Shown here: positions 42,774 through 48,881 of the stretch, piece by piece
Numbering within the stretch: the first letter of the stretch is position 1
Layout of the letters: every line of letters starts with the position of its first letter
From: a virus
Length of the DNA: 48,881 nt
IMG/VR virus record: IMGVR_UViG_3300028571_000040
Coordinates: 1 to 48,881 of that record
Reading direction: 5' to 3' (one strand)
Notes under the pieces: generated by a model
What the model saw: only the letters and a program-made list of their open reading frames with translations
What the model was told of the DNA's origin: nothing
Databases searched by the model: none
Translations under genes and position numbers: made by a program

Positions 42774-43502
42774 ATGGTATTAATACCAAAGCCGCCTGAT
42801 TTTACTTTGCAGGCAATCAAGCAAAAAACAGAACATGAATGGAATTCATCCGTGAACAAGCGCGGGCGTATCATGGGCCATATGATAGGCACAGAATGCG
42901 CTAGAGCGTTATATTACGCTATTCACAATGAACAATCACGATATGTCACATATGACAAGGCGTGGCGTTTTGAGGATTCCATGCGTAATACAAAAACCAT
43001 GGCCAATAGACTTGGATTATCTGGCATTGAAGTTTATGAATTAAATAGCGAAGGCAAAAGACATTCATATTCATTTTTTGACAGTAAATTACAGGATCAT
43101 TGCGATGGTGTATTGATCGGTCTAAAGCAGGCGACTTCAACAAAGCATATATGGCAAAATAAAACCATAGATGAAAGCGATTTGAAAAAATTCAGAAAGC
43201 TAAAAGATCAATATGATATTAAATTAGTTTTGAAAAAGTTTAATGAAAAGTTTTATGCCCGTGCCCAGCTTCTTATGCATTACTTGCAGATTGATCGGCA
43301 TTATATGACGCTATGCATTTCAGGTGCGGTGGATGTCGATGCCTGTCGTACGGAATACGATCCAGATTTTTGTGAAATGCAGATTGACAGGATACGCCGC
43401 ATATTAGAAACTACAACGGAACCAGTACGCATTAATGACAGGCCAGATTTTTGGTTATGCCGTATGTGTGAATTTAAAGGAAAATGCCACAACAATGCCT
43501 AA
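42774..43502 (+). CDS. PD-(D/E)XK nuclease (RecB/Cas4-like) with a changed catalytic Glu
   Basis: The start was set at ATG 42774 because GGGGA precedes it by 6-7 bases; ATG 42762 is the alternative. The product has ECARALYYAI at the front, LQDHCDGVLIGL (D115 in the 42762 numbering), then HIWQNKT and CRMCEFKGKCHNN at the end, a RecB-like architecture with an Fe-S-type Cys cluster. In related phage nucleases the third motif reads E-x-K-T; here it is Q132-N-K134. The family processes DNA ends in recombination together with Sak4. The Glu to Gln change may reduce or abolish cleavage. Confidence 0.82.
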   Translation: MVLIPKPPDFTLQAIKQKTEHEWNSSVNKRGRIMGHMIGTECARALYYAIHNEQSRYVTYDKAWRFEDSMRNTKTMANRLGLSGIEVYELNSEGKRHSYSFFDSKLQDHCDGVLIGLKQATSTKHIWQNKTIDESDLKKFRKLKDQYDIKLVLKKFNEKFYARAQLLMHYLQIDRHYMTLCISGAVDVDACRTEYDPDFCEMQIDRIRRILETTTEPVRINDRPDFWLCRMCEFKGKCHNNA

Positions 43503-46500
43503 AGAGCCACGGCCATATCAAACCGCATCGGTTCAATCCCTTTTCGACTGGCTTTTTACTAAGCCGTCGAAAGGGAACCCTTTAATTGTAAGCCCGGTAG
43601 GCAGTGGTAAAGCTCTAATTAATGCAATGGTCATTAATGAAATTCACAAGCTATACCCGCGCACGCGCATTTTATGTGTTACCCACGTTAAAGAACTGCT
43701 AACGCAAAACGCGGATGAATTGCGAGATTTCTATCCCGATGCTGATTACGGTTTTTATTGCGCCAGCCTTGGCATTAAGCGATTACACAATGATATCACG
43801 TTTGCCAGCATTCAAAGTATTTATAACAAAGCTCATAACCTAAACCGCGCGCCGGAAGTTATATTAATAGATGAGTGCTTTGCTGGAGATACATTAATAA
43901 ACACTAATAGCGGCCCGAAAAGAATTGACAAGGTGAGTCCGGGCGACATAGTGTATAATGCGACTGGAATGGGCGAAGTATTGGCTGTTTCAAAAAAACA
44001 AACAAATGTTATATATAGGATAAAATTAAATGACGGATCAGAAATCAGATGCACTGGAAACCATCCTATACTATCAGAACACGGATGGACTACAGCTCGA
44101 GAACTGGGGCCGGGGCAGCAGCTTTTTAGCATACAAAATATGCCTGAATTGTGGGAAAAACTTTCATCCGTTCAGAACGATGGTGAAAAGTCGAGGGAAA
44201 ATGATGGAAAAGCCACAATCGAGAAAAGCATTTTCAAAACAAAGGTTTTGTTCGATATCTTGCTCGAAGAAGATGGAAAATGCAATGTGGATTCCCGGCG
44301 CAAAAGAGAAAATGTCGAAAACATTAAAAAAAATAGGGCACAAGCCATTAATTCATGGTGGCAATGGTCGAGGGCCTACAAATCAACAGAAAAAAATGAT
44401 GGAAATTCTTGGGAAAGAGTGGGTTGCAGAGTTACCAATAAAAACATTGGCAGGTCACAGGAACGGAATATACCCCAATGCATACAAGGTGGACTTGGGA
44501 AATCAAAAGTTAATGTTAGCTATAGAGATAGATGGAATGAGCCACAGCGGGAAACGGAAAATTTTGGATCAAAAGAAAGACAATCGTCTTTTGTTGTTAG
44601 GGTGGAAAGTGTTGAGATTGAAGAATGCAGAGGTGGAGAATATATATACAATCTACAAGTCTCAGGGCACCCTTCCTACTTTGCTAACGGAATTCTTGTC
44701 CATAACTGTCATTTAATTTCACACGACGAAAACACACAATACCGCAAGTTTATAGATGAATGCAAAAAACTAAACCCTAATCTTGTTGTTATAGGATTAA
44801 CCGGAACGCCATTTCGCGCCGATAGCGGCCTTATTTACGAGGGCGAAGGCGCACTGTTTGACGGCATATGCTATGAGATTGAAATTAGCTGGATGATTGA
44901 TCAGGGCTATCTTGTTAAGCCCGTAACACCGCCCGTAAAAACTATTATGAATGTTGACGGTGTTAAAACGTCAAAGGGCGATTATATATTGCGACAGCTT
45001 GAAAAAGCCGTTGACGTTGACGAGATAACGCAGGCTTGCGTTGCCGAGATCATGGAATTAACGCAAGACCGTAACAAGGTTTTGATATTCACGGCAGGCG
45101 TTGAACATTGCACACACGTCCGCGACGCGATACGCGCATATGGTGTTACTTGCGAGATGGTGACGGGCGATACGCCGAAAACTGAACGCGATGAAATACT
45201 GCGACGATATGCGGCTGGAGAATTTAAGTATTTAGTCAACGTTGCGGTTTTGTGTTTAGATGAAAAAACTGAAATTCTCACTAGCGATGGATTTGTAGGA
45301 ATTGATGATATGACATATGATCATAAAATTGCTGCATGGAAAGAAGATGGTGGAGTTGAATTCACAAAGCCAGAAAATATAGTTAGAAGAGAAAGATTTG
45401 ATGATGAGGAAATGGTTTCATCTGAAAATGGCATATCTGCCAATATTAGAGTTACATCTAATCATAGAATGGTTATTAGGTGTGGCGGTCAAGATAAAAA
45501 TATAAAAGTAGTACCTGCAATTAATCTTGAAGGTATTTCTTGCTCTATACCAGCTTATGGCGATTGCGAGCCAGAAAAGATATATATTGAAACTCCAAAA
45601 AGGAAACAAAATGAGGATCAGCAAATTAGATCAACTTCATTTTCTTTAAGAAAAAGAGGATATTTAAAAAAAGATTCTTTAGAAATGTCTATAAAACAAG
45701 TGAAAAAACTTAGATCTATGAAACATGCTTCACCGCATGAACTAACGATAGATGAATGTAAGTTAATTGGTTTTTGGCTTGGAGATGGATCAAAATCTTG
45801 CGGAAGAGTAGTTATATCACAATCTATGAGATATAAAGACAATGTAGAGTGGTTTGACGGTATTTTAAAATCCACTGGAATACACCATTCAAGAAATATA
45901 AGAAAGAAAAAAGGCAAATTAACTAATGATGTTGTTTTATGGTCTCTTGCGAGAGGAACTGGTGGATACAATCAATCTGTAGAAAAGGGGTATTTTTATA
46001 TAGAGCCTTATTTAGAAAAAGACGGAACATTTTTATTTAAACATTTAAATAAAAATCAGTTACTTGCACTATTAGAAGGATTTTGGAGAGCTGATGGCAG
46101 ACATCATTCTAAGAAAAAAGTTAATAGAATAACTGGGTGCCAATATAAATTATATGATATTTTGCAATCAGTTTGTGTTGTCAGAGGTATATCAGCTTCT
46201 ATATCTAAACCAATAAAGCCAAGAAAATATAATCATAATATACAATGGTCATTTTCTTGGGGTGGAAGAAAAAACTGGAGCTACACAAAAAAATCTATAG
46301 TTAAAGAAAAATCATGGAAAAAAGAAAGAGTGTGGTGCGTTACATCGTCAACTTCTTTTTTGATATGCAGAAGAAACGGAAAAGTTTTTGTAACTGGAAA
46401 TACCACTGGCTACAACGTACCAAGCATTGACTGCATTGTTTTGATGCGTCCTATGAAGAGTCCGGTGCTTTACATTCAAACTCTCGGCAGAGGTATAAGA

Positions 46501-47241
46501 ACCGTATATGCCGATGGATATGATTTAACGACGCAGCAGGGGCGACTTGATGCTATTGCAAATAGTATCAAACCTGATTGTCGTGTTCTTGATTTTGGCG
46601 GCGTTGTTAAGTATCTGGGGCCGATAGATGCGATTAAAATAACGCGCAAGAATAGCGGTAAAAAAGATAAGGACGCGCCGCCGGGCGATGCTATTATGAA
46701 ACGCTGCCCGGCATGTGGTTTTGAATGCTTTGCAGCGCAGCGTTATTGTTATAATTGCTCATATAATTTCTTGCAAGAAAGCTTAAGCCCGACGGCGGAT
46801 AAAGGAAGTTATTTGCTTAGTGCAGATGAGCCGCCGCGAATTGTTTCTGTATTATCTATGACTGTTTCGAGGCATATAAAAAAACATAAAGAAGGTGATC
46901 CTATTCCTAAGCCAACTATGAAAGTAACATACGGAACTTTTGAAGGTTCGTATTCTGATTTTATATGCTTTGAGCATCATGGATATCCGAGAGATAAGGC
47001 CGTTTCATGGTTTAGGCAGAATTTGCCCAGTCATGTTATTCCTAAAGACGTTAAAGAGGGGCTTTTATATAAAGATTTTTACCGGATACCTAGCGATATA
47101 GAGATCAAAAGAGAAGGTAAATACTGGCGGGTTTCAAAGGTTTTTTATAAAGAAAAAGATACACATAAAGAACAAGCAATTGAAATAATTAAAGATTATG
47201 CCGTCGATGATAAAAATGAATTAATTGAAATACCTTGGTAA
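43495..47241 (+). CDS. SF2 DNA helicase (DECH box) interrupted by two inteins
   Basis: The start was set at ATG 43495 (MPKEPRPYQTASVQSLFDWL), overlapping the nuclease stop. Without inteins the protein would be 588 residues. Motifs: I PVGSGKA (Ala where Ser/Thr is usual), Ia LCVTHVKELL, Ib ASIQSI, II IDE-CH, III GLTGTPFR, IV VLIFTAG, V VAVL-TTGYNVPSID, VI YIQTLGRGIR; then a zinc ribbon (CPACGFECF, CYNCSY). Intein 1 splits DE/CH and intein 2 splits VL/TT. Splicing is needed to rebuild both motifs. It lies directly after Sak4, SSB and nuclease genes, so it likely serves replication or recombination. The exteins match each other in composition; intein 2 is more AT-rich. Confidence 0.9.
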   Translation: MPKEPRPYQTASVQSLFDWLFTKPSKGNPLIVSPVGSGKALINAMVINEIHKLYPRTRILCVTHVKELLTQNADELRDFYPDADYGFYCASLGIKRLHNDITFASIQSIYNKAHNLNRAPEVILIDECFAGDTLINTNSGPKRIDKVSPGDIVYNATGMGEVLAVSKKQTNVIYRIKLNDGSEIRCTGNHPILSEHGWTTARELGPGQQLFSIQNMPELWEKLSSVQNDGEKSRENDGKATIEKSIFKTKVLFDILLEEDGKCNVDSRRKRENVENIKKNRAQAINSWWQWSRAYKSTEKNDGNSWERVGCRVTNKNIGRSQERNIPQCIQGGLGKSKVNVSYRDRWNEPQRETENFGSKERQSSFVVRVESVEIEECRGGEYIYNLQVSGHPSYFANGILVHNCHLISHDENTQYRKFIDECKKLNPNLVVIGLTGTPFRADSGLIYEGEGALFDGICYEIEISWMIDQGYLVKPVTPPVKTIMNVDGVKTSKGDYILRQLEKAVDVDEITQACVAEIMELTQDRNKVLIFTAGVEHCTHVRDAIRAYGVTCEMVTGDTPKTERDEILRRYAAGEFKYLVNVAVLCLDEKTEILTSDGFVGIDDMTYDHKIAAWKEDGGVEFTKPENIVRRERFDDEEMVSSENGISANIRVTSNHRMVIRCGGQDKNIKVVPAINLEGISCSIPAYGDCEPEKIYIETPKRKQNEDQQIRSTSFSLRKRGYLKKDSLEMSIKQVKKLRSMKHASPHELTIDECKLIGFWLGDGSKSCGRVVISQSMRYKDNVEWFDGILKSTGIHHSRNIRKKKGKLTNDVVLWSLARGTGGYNQSVEKGYFYIEPYLEKDGTFLFKHLNKNQLLALLEGFWRADGRHHSKKKVNRITGCQYKLYDILQSVCVVRGISASISKPIKPRKYNHNIQWSFSWGGRKNWSYTKKSIVKEKSWKKERVWCVTSSTSFLICRRNGKVFVTGNTTGYNVPSIDCIVLMRPMKSPVLYIQTLGRGIRTVYADGYDLTTQQGRLDAIANSIKPDCRVLDFGGVVKYLGPIDAIKITRKNSGKKDKDAPPGDAIMKRCPACGFECFAAQRYCYNCSYNFLQESLSPTADKGSYLLSADEPPRIVSVLSMTVSRHIKKHKEGDPIPKPTMKVTYGTFEGSYSDFICFEHHGYPRDKAVSWFRQNLPSHVIPKDVKEGLLYKDFYRIPSDIEIKREGKYWRVSKVFYKEKDTHKEQAIEIIKDYAVDDKNELIEIPW
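43876..44706 (+). mobile_element. Intein 1 in helicase motif II (277 residues)
   Basis: It starts with C1 in CFAGDTLINTNSGPKRI and ends YIYNLQVSGHPSYF, ANGILVHN, followed by extein Cys. N-terminal block A, block B (CTGNHPIL), and C-terminal blocks F and G with H276-N277 are all canonical, so it should splice. Between residue 88 and about 238 there is no in-frame endonuclease: the sequence is rich in Ser, Arg, Asn, Lys, Glu and Gly with few hydrophobics (for example SWWQWSRAYKSTEKNDG). The same DNA in another frame encodes a nuclease (44030-44716). Insertion between Glu and Cys of the DECH box disables the helicase until it is spliced. Confidence 0.93.
44030..44716 (+). CDS. Out-of-frame Vsr/DUF559-like endonuclease nested in intein 1
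   Basis: A 228-residue open frame, +1 relative to the helicase, with TAGGA 9 bases before ATG 44030. From residue 36 it reads as a nuclease: a zinc finger (KICLNCGKNF, C38/C41; RFCSISCSKK, C74/C78), a basic linker (KEKMSKTLKKIGHKPLIHGG), then AYKVDLGN, LMLAIEIDGMSHSG (E166, D168, H172), DQKKDNRLLLLGWKVLRLKN (D180, D184). This matches Vsr-like/DUF559 (EDxHD-type) nucleases, some known as phage homing enzymes linked to split inteins. Its last 40 residues overlap intein blocks F and G, and its TAA lies in the extein. The first 35 residues are a shadow of the intein. Expression is inferred. Confidence 0.8.
   Translation: MTDQKSDALETILYYQNTDGLQLENWGRGSSFLAYKICLNCGKNFHPFRTMVKSRGKMMEKPQSRKAFSKQRFCSISCSKKMENAMWIPGAKEKMSKTLKKIGHKPLIHGGNGRGPTNQQKKMMEILGKEWVAELPIKTLAGHRNGIYPNAYKVDLGNQKLMLAIEIDGMSHSGKRKILDQKKDNRLLLLGWKVLRLKNAEVENIYTIYKSQGTLPTLLTEFLSITVI
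45253..46401 (+). mobile_element. Intein 2 in helicase motif V, with LAGLIDADG endonuclease (383 residues)
   Basis: It starts CLDEKTEILTSDGFVGIDDM, with block B at VTSNHRM, and ends WCVTSSTSFLICRRNG, KVFVTGN, followed by extein Thr. The penultimate residue is Gly rather than His, a variation known in other phage inteins. Between them lie two LAGLIDADG dodecapeptides, LIGFWLGDGS (171-180) and LLEGFWRADG (273-282), so the homing enzyme is in frame and looks intact. The DNA is clearly more AT-rich than the flanking extein, in line with recent acquisition. It sits between VAVL and TTGYNVP of motif V. Confidence 0.93.
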
Positions 47242-48410: not shown

Positions 48411-48562
48411 CCGCAGCAATCGAGGCTGGTACGCATAAGATTGTGCCTGTGGAGCCTACGGAAGCGATGGTAGAAGCTTGGTTCCTTGACGGGAGTTACA
48501 AAGCCATGCTCTCCGCCTACGATTTTAACACTGAAAACACAAAGGAAAACAACAATGATTAA
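48359..48562 (+). CDS. Small phage accessory protein (PVEPTEAM motif)
   Basis: A 67-residue frame; ATG 48359 is the first start but has no site. GGAG at 48379 suggests that translation may begin nearer ATT 48391 or by coupling. The core ALRIAAAIEAGTHKIVPVEP followed by TEAMVEAWFLDGSYKAMLSA matches a P-V-E-P-T-x-x-M-x-x-A segment found in many small phage proteins, sometimes fused to Lar or DUF551 modules. The stop overlaps the pentapeptide gene start (ATGATTAA). Confidence 0.6.
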   Translation: MGSCYREGDYLIEALRIAAAIEAGTHKIVPVEPTEAMVEAWFLDGSYKAMLSAYDFNTENTKENNND

Positions 48563-48881
48563 ATTTGAAGTATTTAACCGATTTACACTTAAGCTGCAAT
48601 TCACCGCAGAGATTAATGTAGAAGAAACCGCAAGCCTTTCTATAAAGCGCGGTGCCGCTCTGGAATGGGCCTATCTGGAAGGGGCCAATCTGGAAGGGGC
48701 CAATCTGAAAGGGGCCAATCTGAAAGGGGCCAATCTGAAAGGGGCCAATCTGGAATGGGCCTATCTGGAAGGGGCCAATCTGGAAGGGGCCAATCTGAAA
48801 GGGGCCAATCTGAAAGGGGCCTATCTGGAATGGGCCAATCTGGAAGGGGCCAATCTGGAAGGGGCCAATCTGGAAGGGGCC
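48555..48881 (+). CDS. Pentapeptide-repeat protein, N-terminal part (continues at base 1)
   Basis: AAAGGAAA lies before ATG 48555. The first 35 residues (MIKFEVFNRFTLKLQFTAEI, then NVEETASLSIKRGAALEWA) are a short N-terminal domain I know from phage pentapeptide proteins (V-x-N-R-x-x-x-x-x-Q-F-T-A-E-I, then a helix). From 48660 the A(N/Y)L(E/K)G units run to the window end: 14 full units plus four codons. The end is in frame with base 1. Overlapping the identical terminal 12 bases restores the five-residue register. Confidence 0.9.
   Translation, partial: MIKFEVFNRFTLKLQFTAEINVEETASLSIKRGAALEWAYLEGANLEGANLKGANLKGANLKGANLEWAYLEGANLEGANLKGANLKGAYLEWANLEGANLEGANLEGA
48660..48881 (+). repeat. 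Tandem 15-bp pentapeptide-coding repeat, right part (14.8 units)
   Basis: Same 15-base unit as at 1-270, with variation at the same three bases only (g/a, g/t, a/t at unit positions 4, 7 and 13). The array is cut by the window end after CTGGAAGGGGCC, which is identical to the first 12 bases of the window. Confidence 0.97.

Follow-up and report, generated by a model that had tools for sequence, protein, structure and literature searches.

Intein 1, the first of two inteins in a phage helicase gene, is very probably a dual-coded mobile intein, in which one stretch of DNA is read twice, in the helicase frame for the splicing domain and in the +1 frame for a homing endonuclease. Judged by the sequences of its relatives, the out-of-frame endonuclease is a conserved, selected and family-wide architecture. 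This architecture was overlooked in the preliminary description of the window (the whole stretch of 48,881 nucleotides of viral DNA analyzed here). That description had reported the two inteins with their coordinates, junctions, endonuclease types and reading frames, all of which proved correct by ORF, junction and Pfam evidence, and had placed them at two different catalytic motifs. Intein 1 indeed lies in motif II and intein 2 in motif V.

The host gene (43495-47241) encodes a RadD/YejH-like superfamily II helicase, as indicated by ResIII and Helicase_C domains (Pfam) and by tblastn matches to phage helicases; this gene and all the features described below are on the + strand. The helicase frame is uninterrupted from 43435 to 47241, with a likely start at ATG 43495, and the exteins correspond to 43495-43875, 44707-45252 and 46402-47241. 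The gene matches the phrog_16 DNA helicase (1.6e-81) and RadD (9.5e-66, under the curated RadD cutoff). When the exteins are joined, the sequence can be aligned with phage helicases that have no intein: tblastn finds matches in 3578 phage records, and in 384 of them one place spans at least 80% of the query. A DNA-level search for phage relatives of the locus found no close one.

Intein 1 (43876-44706, 277 aa) begins with C1, ends in VHN, is followed by Cys and interrupts motif II between DE and CH. It consists of a HINT N-part (approximately 43876-44145), a disordered linker and a HINT C-part (approximately 44596-44706). Read alone, it matches Intein_splicing (Pfam, 2.4e-15). In the AlphaFold model, residues 1-90 and 241-277 form a HINT fold with high confidence, while confidence is low between them (block means approximately 47-76), and the best solved structural match in Foldseek is the gp41-1 intein (6qaz), so that Pfam, model and Foldseek all indicate a HINT fold. 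A profile search with intein 1 also returns inteins and intein-like domains. An alignment of 42 relatives of intein 1 shows no variation at C1, the block B His (H63) or the terminal Asn (N277), and the penultimate His is kept in at least 90%. By sequence and predicted structure, the host frame of intein 1 is a HINT splicing domain plus a disordered linker only. Both inteins of the helicase have a nucleophile at residue 1, a C-terminal Asn and Cys, Ser or Thr at +1, and we infer that both undergo protein splicing.

The second frame of intein 1 contains an EDxHD/Vsr-like endonuclease ORF (44030-44716, 228 aa, +1 relative to the helicase frame). Its DUF559 domain (approximately 44480-44641, Pfam 9.5e-8) follows zinc-finger cysteines (CxxC); in the available part of PMC9403480, DUF559 is placed in the EDxHD homing endonuclease family. 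The endonuclease model resembles the catalytic domain of I-Bth0305I (3r3p; Z 10.1, Foldseek probability 1.00, E 5.5e-3) and Vsr (1cw0; Z 9.3), the pTM values of the endonuclease and intein 1 models being modest (0.61 and 0.58, respectively). A PDB search with the single endonuclease sequence gave unconvincing matches only, and a PDB profile search with the endonuclease alignment gave 3hrl and, weakly, 3r3p. Residues E166, D168, H172 and D180 are invariant, and the catalytic E, D, G and H are kept in 80 of 80 loci; together with the DUF559/Vsr-like fold, these conserved E, D, H and D residues identify the product as an EDxHD/Vsr-like enzyme. A candidate start (44017-44032) comprises AGGA at 44017-44020 and, after 9 nt, the ATG at 44030. 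The stop codon TAA (44714-44716) is located 10 nt beyond the end of intein 1, where it is supplied by conserved helicase codons (Cys-His-Leu). We infer that the endonuclease is expressed, cuts DNA and mediates homing.

The same arrangement recurs in a large family. In a tblastn search with the endonuclease, 40 of 50,697 phage records match; nine of these 40 were examined, and in all nine the DE|C site is occupied by an intein whose +1 frame encodes the endonuclease, which is annotated as a gene of its own in none of them. Nine endonucleases were then aligned to find further relatives, of which the 80 best viral ones (out of 227) and the 80 best from genomes (out of at least 166) were used. Custom HMMs, one each for the endonuclease and for the N- and C-parts of the intein, identified an endonuclease at 170 loci. 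Intein halves flank it on both sides at 112 of the 170, where it is always in the +1 register (112/112) and never in frame. This search was blind to the host frame; therefore, in-frame members could have been found. Host-frame stops are absent from 108 of the 112 flanked loci and number at least 15 in each of the other four. The 58 unflanked loci, which were dropped, comprise three cut by contig ends (L056, L104 and L105) and 55 short, weak DUF559 matches (L118-L172). Extra matches in L079, L082, L083 and L088 are fragments of loci already counted, and L114 and L117 were excluded from the pairwise and ORF-edge counts. No relative was returned when the viral_contigs collection was scanned with the single sequence of either the window endonuclease or intein 2. 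In the plasmid collection, the search gave half-length matches to only six records, and DUF559 protein is the annotation of five of these. Eight further records matched by intein 1 were examined. One holds the split intein of phage Amona, described below. Of the other seven, none is contiguous with a recognizable out-of-frame endonuclease; by eye, the endonuclease is in frame or not obvious, or the halves are separated. Thus, the hidden-endonuclease arrangement is not universal. In Streptococcus phage vB_SagM-GXN1 (L174:2501-4211), the intein N-half appears by eye to be fused in frame to a Vsr-like stretch, the C-half being in another frame.

Selection on the two frames was assessed in 82 non-redundant contiguous inteins, using synonymous shuffling of the endonuclease as the null model. 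For the window endonuclease, 9.3 host-frame stops are expected and none is observed, which places the second-frame arrangement far beyond chance; in the overlaps of all 82 inteins, there are 0 host-frame stops versus 665 expected. In the +1 register, a host-frame stop can arise only where a T-ending endonuclease codon precedes AA, AG or GA. Among pyrimidine-ending codons that precede AA, AG or GA, C is used 1120 times and T never, compared with 2076 C and 2853 T in other contexts, and in the four split inteins the same critical context contains 65 T and 30 C. Four independent close pairs differ by 65 substitutions, of which 51 fall at endonuclease third positions, and amino-acid changes number 14 in the endonuclease frame versus 54 in the host frame; therefore, the constrained protein is the endonuclease. 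The endonuclease frame is also the more similar across 80 loci, with a median pairwise identity of 0.379 versus 0.185 for the host frame. These codon and substitution patterns demonstrate purifying selection on the +1 frame and selection against host-frame stops. In the +1 register, no dipeptide makes a host-frame stop unavoidable. In the +2 register, a host-frame stop is forced wherever Met precedes Ile, Met, Thr, Asn or Lys, and such a pair is present in 72 of the 82 endonucleases. The +1 register is thus a permissive one, because every possible host-frame stop can be silently removed by a T to C change. Common descent may also be the reason for the shared register.

The above counts bear on the possibility that the second frame is open by chance, or that it is what remains of an in-frame endonuclease after frameshift mutations displaced it. 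Many intein endonucleases decay, and decay is seen in one relative, L208, which has a fragmentary endonuclease and intein halves in different frames. However, the +1 register in all 112 flanked loci, the constraint on the endonuclease frame and the avoidance of host-frame stops refute this explanation at the level of the family, and we regard it as extremely improbable. A different alternative concerns translation: programmed +1 frameshifting of helicase ribosomes could produce a fusion of helicase N-part, intein N-part and endonuclease with no internal initiation. The constant +1 register and the fact that the N-part is translated first would both be compatible with this. On the other hand, Shine-Dalgarno (SD)-like sequences are found ahead of starts near the first CxxC. 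A start codon is at most 14 codons from the first CxxC in 64 of 80 loci, with a median SD energy of -6.2 versus -3.05 in the control (p 3e-8); a looser SD test gives a moderate result (-6 or below in 54 of 82, or 66%, versus 47% in the control, p 2.6e-4). GAGGT lies within the host-frame Asp-Glu-Val codons of several relatives, 5-8 nt 5′ of the endonuclease ATG. In the window and several close relatives the endonuclease start is further upstream, approximately 154-160 nt into the intein, and in the window another start has a stronger computed SD than the conserved ATG at 44030. The endonuclease ORF has its left edge within the intein in 80 of 80 loci; its stop is within the intein in 75 of 82 and beyond the intein end in seven, the window included. 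In CP-T1, a +1-frame stop lies two codons ahead of the endonuclease ATG, leaving almost no room for a frameshift. Moreover, a frameshifted fusion would contain no C-part and would be unable to splice, and no conserved slippery sequence was noticed, although this was not searched for systematically. Frameshifting is therefore an unlikely explanation, if less so than chance or decay.

The preferred reading, a dual-coded intein with internal initiation, implies the following scheme. Ribosomes in the helicase frame would produce a splicing domain split by a dispensable linker, which would be nothing but the shadow translation of another gene, and ribosomes initiating within intein 1 would produce a zinc-finger EDxHD/Vsr-like homing endonuclease from the +1 frame. 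The endonuclease is predicted to cut the conserved motif II (DExH) DNA of inteinless helicase genes, and repair after cutting would copy intein and endonuclease together. Selection holds the helicase frame open through silent T to C changes before AA, AG or GA.

Intein 2 (45253-46401, 383 aa) begins with C1, ends in TGN, is followed by Thr and is inserted inside motif V (VAVL|TTGYNVP). It is an ordinary LAGLIDADG intein, with the LAGLIDADG_3 domain (9e-6, over the Pfam cutoff) within the intein frame. An intein at the same site in Salinibacter M31CC-1 is 38.6% identical to it over the full length, and intein 2 probably arrived separately from intein 1. The preliminary description had called for a search for alleles of the two sites, and relatives were found with neither, either or both sites filled. 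Both are empty in the helicases of Pantoea Vid5 and Variovorax VPv64; contig L205 contains only the DECH intein, its extein being 37% identical and its motif V intact; and Salinibacter M31CC-1 contains only the motif V intein. Within the intein 1 family, 59 of 86 non-redundant loci have the insertion at DE|CH, and in most of the remainder it is at or near motif II. Endonucleases approximately 60% alike are found in pairs of exteins that cannot be aligned (L026/L106) or that are 22-30% alike (L027/L028 and L048/L066), and the host contigs are titled from several phyla. These comparisons demonstrate spread of the intein 1 family among unrelated helicases.

It had been suggested that the two inteins, through splicing order or splicing failure, regulate the helicase during infection. 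Both sites are essential motifs, and two inteins in the DnaB helicase of M. smegmatis differ in their stress response, according to the accessible part of PMC6195587. However, we found no sign of conditional splicing. The patchy filling of the sites and the movement among unrelated helicases fit mobile elements instead, so that the suggestion is unsupported and regulation is very improbable here. Conserved motifs are the usual targets of inteins, since they offer conserved target DNA and since losing an intein imprecisely there is lethal. The rarity ascribed to double inteins was also overstated: a second intein N-part lies upstream in the same helicase ORF of L040 (2449-5346), near the Walker A region; a second intein-like insert, recognized by eye, is upstream in the host ORF of L199 (1488-4787), also near the Walker A region; and M. 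smegmatis DnaB is a helicase with two inteins (PMC6195587, in the same part).

Each of the closest known systems shares some features with intein 1 and differs in others. Like canonical inteins such as PI-MtuI and PI-SceI, intein 1 has a HINT fold, the junction residues and an endonuclease coded in the middle of the element. In canonical inteins, however, the endonuclease is a domain of the intein polypeptide, whereas that of intein 1, being in the +1 frame, would be a separate protein and not part of the excised intein. The catalytic fold is shared with I-Bth0305I, which is intron-encoded (PDB molecule name 'Mobile intron protein'); in contrast, the intein 1 enzyme has N-terminal zinc-finger cysteines and resides in an intein. 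Split inteins in fractured genes, reportedly described in 2009 by Dassa in a study that PMC3229294 cites, carry a Vsr-like endonuclease between the halves. The intein 1 family also has the endonuclease between the halves and includes a split clade, and the structural similarity of intein 1 to gp41-1 is a further resemblance, but the window and 108 of 112 flanked loci are contiguous, with one host frame open through the overlap; intein 1 itself, with no stop in the host frame of the window, is not split. The ShiLan-type insertion, as described in the available portion of PMC11855218, has an out-of-frame HNH endonuclease and no splicing domain and is thought to be retained in the protein. It resembles intein 1 in having the endonuclease in another frame with the host frame kept open, but intein 1 has a full HINT domain. 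In a full-text literature search, no description of splicing-type inteins with an out-of-frame endonuclease was found; actinobacteriophage inteins are the subject of a preprint (10.1101/2025.01.02.630785), cited regarding overlapping frames in that portion of PMC11855218, which may describe related cases.

One clade of the family has become split. In L022, L039, L065 and L099, the N-half ORF ends just past block B, the endonuclease ORF overlaps the N-half ORF, and the C-half ORF starts within the 3′ end of the endonuclease. These four relatives have 15-30 host-frame stops and form one supported clade (100/98) beside contiguous members, in a tree whose bootstrap is unsettled. A scan seeded with split members returned 28 loci with an endonuclease match, several of the contigs repeating the first scan: 17 are contiguous (0 stops), 10 are split (15-35 stops) and one is the decayed L208. 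The N- and C-halves share one frame in all 10 split loci, as expected from contiguous ancestors; the 10 belong to one clade and are thus not independent. A parallel is seen in Xanthomonas phage FoX3 (L012:3001-3942), where the DE|C site holds a contiguous intein whose +2 frame encodes a LAGLIDADG_2 domain (1e-21). The FoX3 helicase intein is similar to intein 1 in its site, its contiguous HINT domain and its out-of-frame endonuclease, but differs in endonuclease family (LAGLIDADG_2) and register (+2). The openness of its host frame is by itself weakly significant (2.6 stops expected, P0 0.024), and a scan of viral_contigs with the FoX3 LAGLIDADG found one 100% identical copy only. In Pectobacterium phage Amona (L176:2075-5185), the helicase intein is split, a LAGLIDADG ORF at +2 overlaps both halves, and the halves share one frame. 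Taken together, these observations lead us to a broader proposal, which we hold tentatively and consider slightly less probable than its opposite. Dual-coded inteins may be a distinct and widespread class of mobile elements, residing in +1 because host-frame stops can always be silently erased there. A host-frame stop would turn such an element into a split intein, and the class would be a source of fractured-gene split inteins, among them perhaps the fast gp41-1 type. The transition would have been repeated independently by a LAGLIDADG lineage (FoX3 and Amona, both +2).

Intein 1 would be a mobile protein element in which two frames of one stretch of DNA perform unrelated jobs. The 1120 C versus 0 T at the critical codons is a very clean signature of overlapping-gene selection, and the family supplies many diverse, long, same-strand gene overlaps for the study of dual coding. 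It also suggests a concrete and testable route from contiguous to split inteins, and indicates that annotated phage helicases contain homing endonucleases not yet counted.

Two other observations concern the window. The Walker A motif of the helicase (43600-43614) reads GSGKA, in comparison with GKS in Vid5, VPv64 and L205, and this loss of Ser/Thr might weaken ATP hydrolysis. Finally, the 3′ end of the window (48486-48881) falls within a run of pentapeptide-like repeats (GANLEGANLKGA).
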